64,000 bases of DNA. Origin: Athripsodes cinereus. Its lineage: Eukaryota; Arthropoda; Insecta; Trichoptera; Leptoceridae. The notes under the pieces were generated by a model. The model saw only the letters and a list, made by a program, of their open reading frames with translations. It was not told the origin of the DNA and made no database searches. The stretch lies in NCBI GenBank assembly GCA_947579605.1, contig OX388327.1:3893122-3957121 (forward strand). Direction: 5' to 3'. This document shows positions 10,241 through 59,625 of the stretch, piece after piece; position 1 is the first letter of the stretch; the number at the start of each line of letters is the position of its first letter. The translations under genes were made by a program, and so were the position numbers.

Positions 10241-10781
10241 CAGTGTGACCAGATTTTATTTTCAAAAACTACTAAATGGGGAAGTCAAAAACGACTAAAT
10301 TCTCAAAATGGTATAGGAATTTGAAGTATTTCAAAAACTCCTCGGTTTTCTTAAACTAAATTTTTTCACAGTACCTTTTTCTACAACCTACCGGGTATTT
10401 GTACTGACTATCGTTAATGTCAATACCAGATACTACTTTGGAACGAAAAATGTTACACGCTTAAATTTCTACCCCCCCCCCCCATCGCCGAAATTTCAAA
10501 ATGAATTTGGAATTCAAACTATAGGAATTTGAAGTATTTCAAAAACTCCTCGGTTTTCTTAAAAAATATTTTCTCCCAGTACCTTTTTCTACAGAGTACC
10601 CGGTATTTGTACCGACAATTGTTTTCGAATCATTAATCACTCTTCCCAAGTACCCGATACTTTATCTACCAATTACCGACTAAATACTAAAAACTACCAA
10701 AGAAATAAAACTACTAAACATTGTTGCCAATGCCTCAAAAACTACCAAAAAAGTAGGAAACTACCAAATCTGGTCACGCTG
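10241..10781. mobile_element. hAT-like MITE, 541 bp, with target duplication
   Basis: Inverted termini cagtgtgaccagat and atctggtcacgctg, flanked by an 8-bp duplication ctgatagc / ctggtagc (7 of 8) at 10233-10240 and 10782-10789. It contains two copies of an internal module (gaatttgaagtatttcaaaaactcctcggttttcttaaa) and a run of 12 C at 10472-10483. No transposase. Confidence 0.75.
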
Positions 10782-10805
10782 CTGGTAGCATCGTTCATTT
10801 TACTT

Positions 10806-11345
10806 GTGGCAACCCCATAATTCATATCTAGTGAAGTTTGCAACAGACGCAAGTTCAGTTTTTGTTATCTTTGGGTTTGTATTTGCTATTTGAGCTTATT
10901 TTGTCTGTTTGCGTTCGGTCCATAAAATAAATTTTTACACTAACGTAGTTAAGATGAAGAATGACTCTAAAAATCAAACTTTTATGGACCGAACGCAACT
11001 TCATAAAATAGGTTCAAATAGCGCGTGCACATTTAACAAAAAATCTTGCGTCTGTTGCAAACTTCACTACGTACAAATTATGGTGTTGCCACAAGAAAAA
11101 ATACGAATATATTTTTTTTATTATTACTTATAAAAGAAATTTTAACACTAACGTAGTTAAGATGAAGAATGACTCTAAAAATCAATATTTTATGGACCGA
11201 ACGCAACCTCATAAAATAGGTTCAAAGATCGCGTGCGCATTTAACAATTAATTAACTTACGTCTGTAGCAAACTTCACTACGTACTGATTATGGTGTTGC
11301 CACAAGAAAAAATACGAATATATTTTTTTTATTATTACTTATAAA
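10806..11345. mobile_element. Long-TIR MITE with tandemly duplicated right half
   Basis: About 50-bp inverted ends: gtggcaaccccataatt...tagtgaagtttgcaacagacgc at the left and gcgtctgttgcaaacttcacta...aattatggtgttgccac at the right (ending near 11092), plus an inner inverted pair ttgcgttcggtccataaaa. The right half is repeated once more with a period of about 208 bp (11138-11345), ending in the same gccacaagaaaaaatacg. Confidence 0.7.
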
Positions 11346-15558: not shown

Positions 15559-15725
15559 GTGTGCGTTGGCTTCCTCCTGCCATGTTCAACTTCATTAAGA
15601 AGGCGACGGGTGGGGTGGAGGAGGAGGAGAGGGAGAGGAGGAAGAGAGAGAAGAGGGAGAGAAAGGAGAAGATGAAGAGGGACAGGGGGGCCGTGTCAGC
15701 TGAGGAACTACTCAGGATTGATGAG
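15559..15725 (+). CDS. Mhcl: Class XVIII myosin, first coding exon (start codon at 15582)
   Basis: This exon starts the coding sequence of an unconventional myosin XVIII (vertebrate MYO18A, fly Mhcl), an actin-binding myosin thought to act as a scaffold more than a motor. A tttcag acceptor ends at 15558, 23 bases of 5' UTR follow, and ATG is at 15582 with a purine at -3. It encodes 48 residues, beginning MFNFIKK and ending AEELLRIDE. The middle (about residues 13-35) is almost all Glu, Arg and Lys, like the KE-rich N-terminus of MYO18A, which also opens with MFN and has an SAAEL-like motif where this protein has SAEEL. The donor gtaaat follows at 15726, phase 0. The coding strand at 15606-15689 is almost pure purine. 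The acceptor implies at least one more upstream, noncoding exon that I cannot place with confidence. A family A SINE begins within 10 bp of the donor. Identification rests on joining with exons 2 and 3. Confidence 0.88.
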
Positions 15726-15732
15726 GTAAATA

Positions 15733-19092: not shown

Positions 19093-19152
19093 AATTCTTT
19101 AATACGCTTTAAAGATTTGTCGAATTAATCTATTTCTTCTTCTTTGTTACAG

Positions 19153-20307
19153 GTCCGAAGATCTCTCAAATTGACCAAATCAAGAAGAAAAGAAAAGGAA
19201 AAATTACCTTCTGGTATTACAGCTGACTACCGCGACTCATTCTTCGCAAATTTGGACACGGATGCCAATTATTCCAACTATCCACTCGTGTCAGACGTGC
19301 AAAACGAAGAAAACAACCATATTATAATAGGAGAAACAAGACAGACTTCGGTCATATGGAGAGAATCACTACTGCAATCTGATAGTTCGGAAGCTTCTCT
19401 CAATTCTTTAAATAATACAAATGGAGTACCAACTTCGAAACCTCCAAATCTTCCGCCGCTCCCACCAAGACCGCCAAAGAGAGGTATCCTCAAAGGACCC
19501 AGATTGAGCTCTTCGAATTCCCATCAAAACGGTCAGTCGGACACCAGTAAAGATCAACCTGATTTAGCACCCAATGGCCAGGAAACCGCTGTTTTGATGC
19601 AGAACACTTTAAGGAATGAATTGATCACGTATCAGAACGTTCCTGTAAGGAATGGTGTCGGTAATGATGACATGAATAATGTTCAGAACTTTACAAAGAA
19701 AGTTATACATAGTCCAATTGATTCTAATATAAAGAACTATTACAGTAATAACTATGGATCTCCGCCTCCTATTATGATTACATCACACGAATACAATGGA
19801 AACACTAATACAGTGACGTCACCTTCACCTAGTGTCGACACTTTAACTGATACGACTTCCAATTCATCATTCGCTACTCCTCCCTTCTCCATGTCACCGA
19901 CTGGTGATTCGGATGCCTTCCATCAATTCCCTTCCTACCTTGACGGTATGAATCTACCTCTTCCTGAAGTTGTCCCCGCTGAGTTACCACCACCGAGAGT
20001 TTTGACGATACAGCGTCAGAAAGGACCCCGTAGTGATTTCGGTTTCAGTTTGAGAAGATCGATGATTGTGGAGAGAAATCTCACAGAGGGTAAAGTGAAC
20101 GGTGTGAATTCCTCGGACGACGAGAAGGATGGTGTGCGAATGAAGGCGGTGATATTCGCGGAGCCGGGCACTCTTGGTCACGACCACGAGACGGGACTTT
20201 TGCCCGGCGATCGTTTGTTGGAAGTGAATGGTGTTTGTGTTGATGATAAATCAAGGGATGAAATCATTGAGATGATTAAAGGGAGCCAGGATCATGTCAC
20301 GGTCAAG
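19153..20307 (+). CDS. Mhcl: Class XVIII myosin, exon 2: proline-rich linker and most of the PDZ domain
   Basis: A 385-codon exon bounded by a ttacag acceptor (ending 19152) and a gtgagt donor (20308), phase 0 at both ends. It continues the reading frame of exon 1 with VRRSLKLTKSRRKEKEK. Around protein residues 145-165 lies a proline-rich run (PPLPPRPPKRGILKGP), a plausible SH3-type ligand. The rest of the linker is Ser/Asn/Thr-rich and probably disordered. From about residue 326 to the exon end is a PDZ domain: RVLTIQRQ as the first strand, DFGFSLRR as the carboxylate-binding loop (about 342), VIFAEPGT, LLPGDRLLEVNG (about 395) and SRDEIIEMIKGS as the second helix. FGFSLRR, the PGDRLxEVNG loop and SRDEIIEMI match my knowledge of MYO18A PDZ. 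The family PDZ is close to the motor and helps target the protein to membranes and the cytoskeleton. The domain is cut by the intron just after VTVK. Confidence 0.93.
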
Positions 20308-20449
20308 GTGAGTCATTTACCAATTATTATTTTTTATTACAGTCCACTTGATTGGTCTGCCTCAAGCTCATATTGAATGATATACCTACCTACCTCTCTT
20401 TGTGATTTTTTACAGTTATTCAATCTATTATTTATTTAAACGTATTTTT

Positions 20450-37669: not shown

Positions 37670-38362
37670 TCAGGTCCCCCCGACGTTGGCGATCATTCCG
37701 GCGAAAACCTCCCTGTCCTGTGCTGCTCTGAACAGGTCATCCACTGTCCTCATTCCGGTCCATTCTCTAATATTGCGCAGCCAGGACATCTGCTTTCTGC
37801 CAACTCCCCGTCTTCCTTCTATCTTGCCCTCCAATATAAGGCGGAGGAGACGGTACTTCTCTCCACGCAGCACGTGACCCAAATATGAGACCTTCCTCAC
37901 TTTAACAATCGACAACAGCTCTCTCTTGGCTCCGGCTCTCCTAAGCACTTCGATGTTACTGACCCTTTCGGTCCAAGGTATACGAAGCATTCTACTGTGT
38001 ACCCACATTTCGAATGCTTCTAACCGATTCATTACGTTTACTTTCAGAGTCCAAGTTTCACATCCGTATAATAGAGTTGACCATATGTAAGCTTTTATCA
38101 TTCTTTGTCGAAGTTTAAGATTCAAATTATCGTCACAGAAGAAGGGTCTCATCTTATTAAATGCAGCACGAGCAACTTCTATCCTGCATTTTACCTCTGT
38201 ATCTGGGTCGAGTGTATTTGTTATGATACTGCCGAGGTATTTAAACTTGTCAACCATTTCGATATTTACTCCTTTTAGTTGCAGAGATGATCCAGAATAA
38301 TCAAGTCTTCCAAACGACTTTACGAGTAATGCCTTGCAGCAGCGATTATCTATCTCATCCAA
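37670..38362 (-). pseudogene. RTE-like LINE reverse transcriptase, C-terminal 230 codons open
   Basis: The longest coding remnant of a retrotransposon here. It includes the RT thumb region (FKYLGSIITNTLDPDTEVKCRI, read as two adjacent blocks), AFNKMRPFF, the conserved LYGCETWTL, then the C-terminal region RMLRIPWTERVSN, VSYLGHVLRGEKY and WLRNIREWTG, ending in NVGGT. This is typical of RTE-type endonuclease/RT proteins, which are normally about 1000 residues. The endonuclease and RT palm are missing because the frame meets a stop just upstream of 38362, so it is 5'-truncated. No stop interrupts the 230 codons. Confidence 0.75.
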
Positions 38363-47366: not shown

Positions 47367-47857
47367 TTTTTTTTTTTAAAGTGAAGGTCAAGGGACCTTG
47401 TATCCCTTGTGTCACCGCGACCATAGTAGATCTATTGTGACATCCTTCTGTGTCATATCTCACTCTCAAGACCTACATGGGTCATGTAGCTCACGATTTG
47501 TCTTGGTGTGAGAAGCCTCACTTTCTCCGAGTCCAGCAGTGGTCCTCCGAGGATGTGACATCGATTGCGAGCGAGTGCGTCACAGTTACAGAGGATGTGG
47601 ATAGGTGTCTCATTATCCTCTGAACAAAATCTGCAGACTGGGTTATCTGGCAGTCCTATTTTTGTCATGTGTTTCCGTAGTCTGCAGTGTCCCGTCAAGG
47701 TCCTGGTTAGAATCCTTATTTGTTTTTTATTAAGTTTTAGAACTTCTGTGGTGAACTTCCGCGAGTACCCTATCATTAGTTCCTTCGCGTGTTTCAACCC
47801 TATACAATTGGACCAAATTTCGTGGCTCTGGTCCATGGCCCAGTTTCTTAGACTAAG
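47367..47857 (-). pseudogene. 5'-truncated LINE with RNase H-type C-terminus and target duplication
   Basis: Minus-strand frame 47836-47453 encodes the end of an RNase H-like domain (SHEIWSNCIGLKHAKELM) and a zinc-type tail, LTGHCRLRKHMTKIGL, CRFC...ETPIHILCNCDALAR, as in I/R1-type non-LTR retrotransposons. A short 3' UTR ends in an oligo-A run (T run at 47367-47376). An exact 10-bp duplication ttcttctctt flanks it (47357-47366 and 47858-47867), so both ends are fixed and the element is about 490 bp long. Confidence 0.8.
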
Positions 47858-48630: not shown

Positions 48631-49204
48631 TGTGCATGGTTTGGATGTTTGATTATTTGTGTGATTTTTGCTGATTCAACTGATAATATGTATCAAACAT
48701 CTATTGTGCACCTTAATAATAAATAAATAAATAAATAACCTCAAGAATTTACCAGACATTAGTGCATGCATTAATATTAGTGACATTTCGAATGTTTTTA
48801 AAGGAGCATCCTACAATGCATTTAATCGAATAAATATACATATTTATAAGAATTGTATTACATATTATATACATTTATTTTACCCGTATAACTATTCTTG
48901 ATTCGACACATTAATTGTAATTTTTTTGTTATGTTGTTGTTCTCTATTCTGATTTGATTGTAAACATGTTAAAGGCTAACGCCGTGAATATATGTAAATA
49001 AATAAATAAATGTATCTATAGATGTTGTGTGCATGGTTTGGATGATTGATGATTTGTGTGAGTTTTGTTGATTTAATTGATAATAATATGTAACAAATAT
49101 CTGTTGTGCACCTCAAAATAACCTCAAGAATTTATCAGACATTAGTGCATGCATTAATATTGTTGAGACATTTCGAATGTTTTTAAAAAGTGTCCTACAA
49201 TGCA
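48631..49204. repeat. Local direct duplication, about 180 bp
   Basis: 48631-48820 and 49028-49204 are diverged direct copies (tgtgcatggtttggatg ... gacattagtgcatgcattaatatt ... gacatttcgaatgttttta). The first has an (aata)n insertion. The second is followed at 49226-49250 by an inverted copy of gagacatttcgaatgtttttaaaa. Confidence 0.7.
48890..49012 (+). repeat. LINE 3' UTR end with (taaa)n tail
   Basis: Contains cttgattcgacacatt and gttaaaggctaacgccgtgaatatatgtaaataaataaataaat, homologous to 12600-12785. It lies between the two copies of a local duplication. Confidence 0.55.
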
Positions 49205-51658: not shown

Positions 51659-52088
51659 TTCTAAACAGAAAAAATACTACTTGTGACATTGTGTAGTTTC
51701 GCCCTGATTTACAATATAATACTGTATTTTATTTAGTGGTAGCTTAACAACATTTAGTAATACAGAATAAGTATTCCGCGGATAAAATGATAGAAGTGAT
51801 TGTGTGAGATAGTAAACATGAAACATGTAACTATGTACAACGTAGAGTAATATCATAAATATACAGTCCCTGGCTACAATGTGCGGATCAATCAAAAATT
51901 AATTAATCCACAATGTTTCTACGACCAAGGTGTCGCGCCTTCGCCTCTTTTAAAGTACACCTCCGTCGCCAGTTCTGGATGTCAATGAGTTGTGTATTCT
52001 TAAAGTTCAATTTAGCGACCGATGGTTCTTGGTTCCATATTAATAATGTATTAATAAAACAAGATATATAGTTATTCCACTTTATAAA

Positions 52089-52136
52089 TTTTGCGAGCCG
52101 GCTTTCAAGAGCTTCCGCTCTCATCATCAGGCAAAA
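52089..52136 (-). ncRNA. Hammerhead ribozyme motif (type I), best copy
   Basis: Read on the minus strand from 52136: stem I 5' strand UUUUGC; core CUGAUGA (52130-52124); an extra U; stem II GAGAGC, loop GGAA, GCUCUU; core GAA with A15.1; palindromic GCCGGC (52102-52097); U16.1 (52096); C17 (52095); stem I 3' strand GCAAAA (52094-52089), fully complementary to UUUUGC. All catalytic-core positions of the hammerhead consensus are present and predicted self-cleavage is between 52095 and 52094. Stem III is so short that, as in Penelope-like element and retrozyme hammerheads, activity may need a dimer. The unpaired U after CUGAUGA is a caveat. Flanking palindromic sequence suggests a Penelope-like element end. 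Confidence 0.7.
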
Positions 52137-52221
52137 GTAAAGCGAAGCTTCATTACAAAGGTAGTGTATTTTACAAAATTTCATCCACGGAAGACTTCAT
52201 TGTAATGAAGCTTCACTTTAC

Positions 52222-52269
52222 TTTTGCCTGACGATGAGAGCTGAAGCTCTTGAAAGCCGATTCGCAAAT
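52222..52269 (+). ncRNA. Hammerhead ribozyme motif, inverted partner
   Basis: Same plan on the plus strand: UUUUGC, CUGACGA (52228-52234), U, GAGAGC-UGAA-GCUCUU, GAAA (52252-52255), GCCGAU, U, C, GCAAAU. The core is intact, but stem III has lost its palindrome (GCCGAU for GCCGGC) and one stem I pair is lost. About 85 bp separate it from the minus-strand copy, and the two arms share sequence beyond the ribozyme (gaagcttc and cttttgcctga). Confidence 0.55.
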
Positions 52270-52489
52270 TAATAAAGTCAACTGTAGACCAACTAAATAG
52301 GTACCTAATATCTTGTTTTATCAATGAATTGTGTATTCTTGTTTAGATACACCACCTAGCCATCAAAGCTACGATTTTTCTAGTTTTCTTTAACCTCTCG
52401 GATTGCCATTCGAAAGATTTCTTGAAATGCTTTTCTCACACGTTCGCTGCAAGTTTCCTAAATAAAATTGTCTATGGTAATAAGTATCA

Positions 52490-52912
52490 CCCCGATTTAT
52501 TTTCGCCACTTGGGATTTCTCGAAATAGAATAGATCTTTTACTCTTTTTTACTACTATTCGAGTGTCTTTGTGAGAGGCAGATGTTATATCTCGTGTAAG
52601 ACTTAACTTTTTTACTACTATTCGAGTGTCTTTGTGAGAGGCAGATGTTATATCTCGTGTAAGACTTAACTTTTTTACTACTATTCGAGTGTCTTTGTGA
52701 GAGGTAGATGTTATATCTCGTGTAAGACTTAACTTTTTTACTACTATTCGAGTGTCTTTGTGAGAGGCAGATGTTATATCTCGTGTAAGACTTAACTTTT
52801 TCAATTTCCACCCATCCAGAAAGTCTTGTCTTCATTGGCTCAATCAGGACAGCTTATGATAATGTTAATTTCATGAAGTTTGTCCAATGGCTACTCCACT
52901 TGTAGTGATCGA
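52490..52912 (+). repeat. Family B relative containing a 4 x 63-bp tandem array
   Basis: The flanks (ccacccatccagaaagtcttg and atggctactccacttgta) match the second half of family B. The array unit (actactattcgagtgtcttt ... agacttaactttttt) contains the family's cgagtgtcctgtaaaaggcaggtgtt block in diverged form. Confidence 0.6.
52551..52801. repeat. Tandem array, four 63-bp units
   Basis: Four head-to-tail units at 52551, 52614, 52677 and 52740, almost identical (unit 3 has gaggtag where the others have gaggcag). Because 63 is a multiple of three, the minus strand stays open in two frames, giving repeating peptides such as KKLSLTRDITSASHKDTRIV; I regard these as chance frames. Confidence 0.9.
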
Positions 52913-59090: not shown

Positions 59091-59526
59091 CCTGTACTGG
59101 TGAGAATGTGTCTCTATCTTGGGCTGTCCGAAACAGCCCCTCGATACTCCATATTTCTGTCCACTTGTGTATATAGCGGAGACAGGTTATCTGCTCTCTT
59201 CCATCACCTCTTTATGATCCTCGAGTTTTCCCATGATAATCAATTACAATTATAATAATAATACTTTTTTTAGTCAATATTCATACAAAACCAGAGACAA
59301 TAGTTAGACAGATAAGACAAGCAGATTGAGAGTCTAATAAACAAGTCAGTTGTAACACATGGCTCAAATAGGAGACATTCCAGATTTAAATATTTGATAT
59401 TAGCTCCTTATTTACTCTGGCTCTGTGGAGGATCCTATTTTGCATTGCTGACCATGTATTTCCAGGGTATCTGAAGCATTATTTTATATTTAAACTATTT
59501 TAAAACATTTTTTTGTTTTGTTTCAG

Positions 59527-59625
59527 GTTCAACCAGTCGCCGAACTGAGTGAAGTGTGGAAAAGATGGCTCGCAATGAACAGATCAAGAGATGAGGCGAC
59601 GCCGCATTACACTCCAATTAGAAAG
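59527..59625 (+). CDS. Mhcl: Class XVIII myosin, exon 3: end of PDZ and start of pre-motor linker
   Basis: A 33-codon exon with a good polypyrimidine acceptor (tttgtttcag ending 59526) and a gtgagg donor at 59626, phase 0 on both sides. It reads VQPVAELSEVWKRWLAMN and continues to TPIRK. Spliced to exon 2 it gives TVKVQPVAELSEVW, which parallels the VKVQPIPELSELS junction that I recall from mammalian MYO18A just after the PDZ. This match, across a 39.2-kb intron and in the same phase, is the main reason to accept such a short exon. No further coding exon is recognisable between 59626 and 64000, so the motor domain lies downstream of the window. Confidence 0.9.

Follow-up and report, generated by a model that had tools for sequence, protein, structure and literature searches.

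Minimal type I hammerhead ribozymes, usually without helix III, occur by the thousands across many animal genomes, mostly as dispersed copies, and some of them map to the pseudo-LTRs of Penelope-like elements, where their role has been called a mystery (PMC7761336). The known Penelope-type hammerheads lack a closed stem III (PMC6155905, PMC7761336), and operation as a double hammerhead reportedly requires a palindrome, together with a tandem layout in eukaryotes (PMC6466107). Inversion is common among Penelope pseudo-LTRs, the head-to-head orientation being the most frequent; one of the two may carry a tail, and a target-site duplication (TSD) is often present, which in rotifers measures 8-10 bp and is missing from some copies; hammerheads are nowhere mentioned in this rotifer paper (PMC3846280). 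In Anolis, the Poseidon ribozyme reportedly cut only with the protein present, and killing the ribozyme left in vitro insertion unchanged (PMC11167929). Among other animal motifs, the putative hammerhead RNA of Aedes aegypti was inactive as tested, and a dimer was suggested (PMC3088659).

Here we describe a locus with two hammerhead-like copies in Athripsodes cinereus, within a 64,000-nt stretch of contig OX388327.1 (the window), whose numbering is used throughout. The original prediction placed an intact-looking type I hammerhead on the minus strand, and every letter that it gave is present in the order UUUUGC, CUGAUGA, U, GAGAGC, GGAA, GCUCUU, GAAA, GCCGGC, U, C, GCAAAA. The parts of this copy are as follows.

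52089..52136, minus strand: hammerhead-like copy 1 (core and stem reading, motif scan, fold prediction)
52136-52131 / 52094-52089, minus strand: stem I, 6 bp (UUUUGC / GCAAAA)
52130-52124, minus strand: core CUGAUGA
52123, minus strand: extra U
52122-52117 / 52112-52107, minus strand: stem II, 6 bp (GAGAGC / GCUCUU), with loop GGAA
52106-52103, minus strand: GAAA
52102-52097, minus strand: palindrome GCCGGC
52096 and 52095, minus strand: U16.1 and C17, with the predicted cut between 52095 and 52094

This copy, like the second, has the complete set of 12 fixed core letters (C3U4G5A6, G8A9, G12A13A14, A15.1-U16.1 and H17), which bears out the claims of a satisfied invariant core and of type I order; the cut position had also been counted correctly. 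An extra U stands between A9 and stem II in both copies and departs from the standard type I core. In addition, the cleavage site reads cUC and the box GAAAg, as against the usual RUH and GAAAY, a rule to which active-looking exceptions are also described (PMC7936874). The word "intact" passes over the state of stem III, which is a 3+3 palindrome that cannot close a three-pair hairpin intramolecularly, and a single strand closes one pair besides A15.1-U16.1.

The original prediction overlooked a second copy, which lies inverted on the plus strand, and the two copies are the arms of one fold-back element.

52002..52320: whole fold-back element, 319 nt, a predicted hairpin flanked by a direct repeat
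52002..52054, minus strand: extension of 53 nt on one side only, adjoining repeat unit 1 at its 3' end; compared below with the Penelope "tail"
52055..52158, minus strand: left arm, repeat unit 1, with its 5' end facing the centre (arm alignment)
52159..52199, no strand: spacer between the arms, 41 nt
52200..52320, plus strand: right arm, repeat unit 2; its terminal ATATCTTGTTTTA abuts the direct repeat
52222..52268, plus strand: hammerhead-like copy 2, inverted (motif scan, fold prediction)
51982..52001, plus strand: left direct repeat TCAATGAGTTGTGTATTCTT, probable target-site duplication (repeat comparison)
52321..52340, plus strand: right direct repeat TCAATGAATTGTGTATTCTT, probable target-site duplication

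Copy 2 has the core CUGACGA, the extra U at 52235, an intact stem II with loop UGAA, and GAAA, followed by GCCGAU, UC and GCAAA, the last giving a 5-bp stem I; its predicted cut falls between 52263 and 52264 on the plus strand. Its GCCGAU breaks the stem III palindrome and makes stem III in one strand weaker than that of copy 1. The extra U had been claimed for all copies and is indeed present in both, but "all copies" amounts to only two, mutually inverted. Five differences separate them, including one gap at the end of stem I, and none falls in the 12 fixed letters or in stem II; a reading of this pattern as selection on the core was dropped because the differences are too few. The ungapped arms (52090-52158 and 52200-52268) are 93% complementary over 69 nt and stand 41 nt apart, and extending the alignment into part of the spacer gives 96 identical columns out of 118 without gaps. 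The units are arranged head-to-head, with both 5' ends facing each other. The GC content of the element is 35%, against 34% for the whole window. The motif scan detects the element nowhere else in the window, and the locus holds no second copy on the same strand.

The flanking direct repeat of 20 nt is identical at 19 positions, whereas the best among 295 random place pairs reaches 16 of 20. It directly adjoins the right arm, whereas 53 nt separate it from the left arm, and it is probably the target-site duplication around the 319-nt insertion. Elsewhere in the window, isolated direct repeats of the 19/20 type occur at spacings of 200-600 bp, namely 29214/29594 and 60113/60446 (20 and 24 nt long with one mismatch, 380 and 333 bp apart), which could be TSDs of other insertions. 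Near-identical direct duplications, seen as runs of shared 20-mers, lie at 10311-11330 and 48631-49184 with spacings of 208-211 bp and 383-397 bp, and the motif scan finds no hammerhead in them. The presence of other duplications and isolated short repeats in the window lowers the trust that can be placed in the 20-nt repeat as a TSD. About 220 bp beyond the fold-back, an array of a 63-bp unit (52544-52801; 4.1 copies, 98% match) is likewise free of hammerheads in the motif scan.

A reading frame with a PDZ domain at 19144-20373 has relatives named Myosin-XVIIIa in several insects (among the 120 best of 335). Among the matches listed, its four closest relatives share 62-74% identity and carry no protein name, and the closest named relatives are from Lepidoptera, at 55% identity or less. 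Using these 120 of the 335 relatives, tblastn places exons on the plus strand at 15582-15728 (best E 7e-5) and 19165-20358, and a weak one at 59506-59574 (E 0.008). The original assignment to an intron of an insect myosin gene is supported by the named relatives and by exons on both sides, the right one weak; the matches thus place the element within a predicted long Myosin-XVIIIa intron, with the left edge the more certain of the two. Since copy 1 runs antisense to the gene and copy 2 in its sense, the claim of a motif opposite to the myosin transcript holds for copy 1 but not for copy 2. The window also contains two likely LINE remnants on the minus strand: 47453-47836 gives a zf-RVT match below the curated cut-off, and 37670-38362 has by eye the look of a reverse transcriptase C-terminus, without a Pfam match.

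The element was compared with the described systems nearest to it. The minimal Penelope-type hammerheads share with the motif the type I arrangement of parts, a short stem I and stem II, a near-absent stem III and a palindrome suited to a dimer (PMC7761336, PMC6466107, PMC6155905), in line with the proposed resemblance to small hammerheads with minimal stem III. They also share a location in pseudo-LTRs, which is probable here, and an overlap with an AUG as in Anolis Poseidon (PMC11167929); unlike them, the copies of the element are inverted rather than tandem, and the element is without a reading frame. The inverted Penelope pseudo-LTRs of the rotifer Adineta vaga show the same head-to-head arms, a one-sided tail and, in several copies, a TSD. 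Those pseudo-LTRs measure 181-218 bp, with a TSD of 8-10 bp or none and an ORF, whereas the element has shorter units, a 20-nt repeat, a 53-nt extension and no ORF (PMC3846280). The putative hammerhead of Aedes aegypti, likened here by its description, is likewise from an insect and a repeated element and has a palindromic stem/loop III suited to a dimer (PMC3088659). Type I hammerheads of the newt and axolotl are alike in their one-pair stem III with a palindromic tetraloop and in working better as dimers, but they occur in tandem repeats of 330-350 bp with loop-loop contacts, whereas the copies of the element are inverted (PMC7229834).

The rarity of the motif was estimated with a scan for CUGANGA, at most one inserted base, a perfect stem II of 4-7 bp, GAAA, UH and a 5-bp stem I, which was designed after the motif was known and is therefore a guide and not a significance test. 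Two sites, copy 1 and copy 2, are found in the real window, as against none in 200 first-order Markov random windows and, separately, 2 in 3000. Relaxing stem I to 3 bp yields 21 sites in 3000 random windows and the same two sites in the real one. Being copies of one another, these two sites amount to a single observation. A covariance check with Rfam, the route that had been suggested for verification, did not recover the motif: no hammerhead model reaches its gathering score anywhere in the window, and none matches three separate stretches at E up to 10, in searches run without a Penelope-type positive control. The Rfam scan gave eight matches to miRNA models, at 22-41 bits against cut-offs of 46.5-97; all eight lie under the gathering scores and reflect the long palindrome. 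In the isolated 66-nt stretch, predicted stability is at the level of shuffled sequence (z 0.15), with 102 of 200 shuffles doing equally well. None of five short motif strings was found printed in the literature searched. Pattern scans of viral and genome contigs for relatives matched only L001-L003, which, from the sequence surrounding each match, are taken for chance: L001 and L002 carry titles of bacterial records, and L003 has reading frames that look phage-like by eye. Taken together, the motif is real and hammerhead-like, and it is more than chance.

The predicted folds differ between isolated copies and the whole element. Copy 1 alone (minus strand) has a best fold of -13.0 kcal/mol, against -9.3 for the hammerhead without stem III and -8.3 with it; for copy 2 alone (plus strand), the corresponding values are -8.4, -7.3 and -3.8 kcal/mol. 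When two identical minus-strand copies are co-folded without constraint, a double hammerhead is predicted at -37.5 kcal/mol, compared with twice -13.0 for the separate strands, and it consists of two 5-bp stems I, two 6-bp stems II and one shared 8-bp stem III. The plus copy gives no double hammerhead on co-folding. In the controls, an equally good fold is reached by 8 of 400 plain shuffles and by 17 of 400 that retain the palindrome, and 58 of 400 show as large an advantage over their monomers, so that a dimer of the minus-strand copy is plausible in these models but not striking.

In the whole element, by contrast with the isolated copies, the hairpin is predicted to dominate, with -134.8 kcal/mol on the plus strand and -142.3 on the minus strand (z -14.5 and -16.9). 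The pair probability of stem II in this context is 5e-17 to 2e-13, and it rises to 0.79-0.85 (minus) and 0.92-1.00 (plus) without the upstream arm; that of stem I without the upstream arm is 0.44-0.46 (minus) and 0.79-0.87 (plus). On either strand, the antisense arm is transcribed first and is already present when the ribozyme emerges. Pairing of the ribozyme with this upstream copy makes activity in place unlikely, and the ribozymes of the element are probably inactive in place, as these equilibrium predictions suggest; there may be a short chance of cutting while transcription proceeds. If the intron is transcribed, the long hairpin at 52002-52320 could feed small-RNA pathways.

Several other origins have to be weighed against a Penelope-like one. 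A resemblance by chance, with no ribozyme history, would agree with the lack of an Rfam hammerhead match, with a local fold like that of shuffles and with the extra core base; we regard it as very unlikely, since the scan criteria are satisfied at a rate of about 2 hits in 3000 random windows, and the motif observed here has in addition a sixth pair in stem I, a palindrome of 6 nt that exactly fills the interval from GAAA to U16.1, and the Penelope-like layout. The same low rate speaks against a fold-back DNA element (MITE) that is almost all terminal inverted repeat and in which the hammerhead-like string is merely part of the repeat, because the full core would then be a coincidence. Fully folding MITEs of 200-300 bp are common, and the long arms fit such an element, as do the outermost AAACAAGATAT, which matches on both sides, and the TA beside each, a possible short TSD. 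However, the direct repeat abuts the right arm while standing 53 nt outside the left one, and 20 nt is long for a transposase-made duplication. A MITE is thus an unlikely source.

The element could be the remnant of a non-autonomous animal retrozyme, a short (170-400 nt) type I hammerhead element moved via circular RNA, and its length of 319 nt, GC content of 35%, weak palindromic stem III as in amphibians and direct repeat above 4 bp are shared with such elements, by the traits given for them (PMC7229834). Retrozymes are direct tandem repeats of a 170-400 nt unit, though, and the locus has an inverted pair and no tandem copy, which leaves this origin rather improbable. Domestication in the Myosin-XVIIIa intron of an active ribozyme that cuts antisense or intronic RNA would accord with the full core in both copies and with the absence of any of the five inter-copy differences from the 12 fixed letters and stem II. 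With arms 93% complementary, zero changes in 12 letters are expected anyway; moreover, the plus copy has lost the stem III palindrome and the upstream antisense arm sequesters both copies, and we find domestication hardly credible.

We propose instead that the feature is a decayed 319-nt insertion that goes back to pseudo-LTRs of a Penelope-like retroelement and carries a pair of minimal type I hammerheads, an explanation that we consider reasonably likely. It draws on the head-to-head inverted units, the 53-nt one-sided extension, the direct repeat and the hammerhead lying over an AUG, a likeness to Penelope in layout and not in sequence. Evidence against it comes from the direct repeat, which exceeds the rotifer TSDs in length, from the extra core base and from the negative Rfam hammerhead searches. 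No Penelope reverse transcriptase or GIY-YIG frame was found by the Pfam scan in five of the nine listed ORFs of at least 120 aa, and none of the nine lies in the element; pseudo-LTR remnants need not carry a frame. Specifically, two pseudo-LTR end copies would have been joined head-to-head, each with one minimal type I hammerhead, a kind of ribozyme whose best activity is expected from two copies that form a double hammerhead with a common palindromic stem III. A parent element with its pseudo-LTRs in tandem would yield multimeric transcripts for the ribozyme to cut at C17. Each strand of the present locus carries a single ribozyme preceded by an antisense copy, and the transcript is predicted to collapse into a hairpin without cutting. 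The Anolis Poseidon result implies that even the cutting of the parent may not be needed for transposition.

The Penelope-like origin also bears on the extra U, since A9, this U and G10.1 together read AUG in both copies.

52122..52124, minus strand: AUG from A9, extra U and G10.1, copy 1 (letter reading; putative start codon)
52234-52236, plus strand: AUG from A9, extra U and G10.1, copy 2 (likewise)

The AUG is found in both copies although their N7 letter differs, and the predicted cut lies 30 nt after its A. In Anolis Poseidon, the hammerhead overlaps the ORF start at stem II and the cut falls 26 bp after the start codon (PMC11167929). By analogy, the extra U might be kept by coding pressure, the ribozyme core doubling as the start codon of the parent retroelement's protein, which we offer as a tentative possibility. 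A search with the 73-codon frame from the AUG pair retrieved no protein of similar length with three shared 5-residue words. No weight was given to the open frame that follows the AUG, as 51% of all ATGs in the window are followed by at least 12 open codons and 9.5% by at least 42. A proposed end of the high-identity arm at precisely 12 codons beyond the AUG, resembling a rotifer pseudo-LTR, was likewise set aside, because the similarity continues past a one-base gap. The overlapping AUG nevertheless provides a testable reason for the odd extra core base: if this reading is true, cutting severs the start codon from the message, and cutting and translation of one transcript are mutually exclusive.

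Taken together, the locus probably extends the minimal Penelope-type hammerheads by an insect member whose form went undetected in the present Rfam search, and it shows how a ribozyme may possibly be switched off by inversion beside its own antisense copy.
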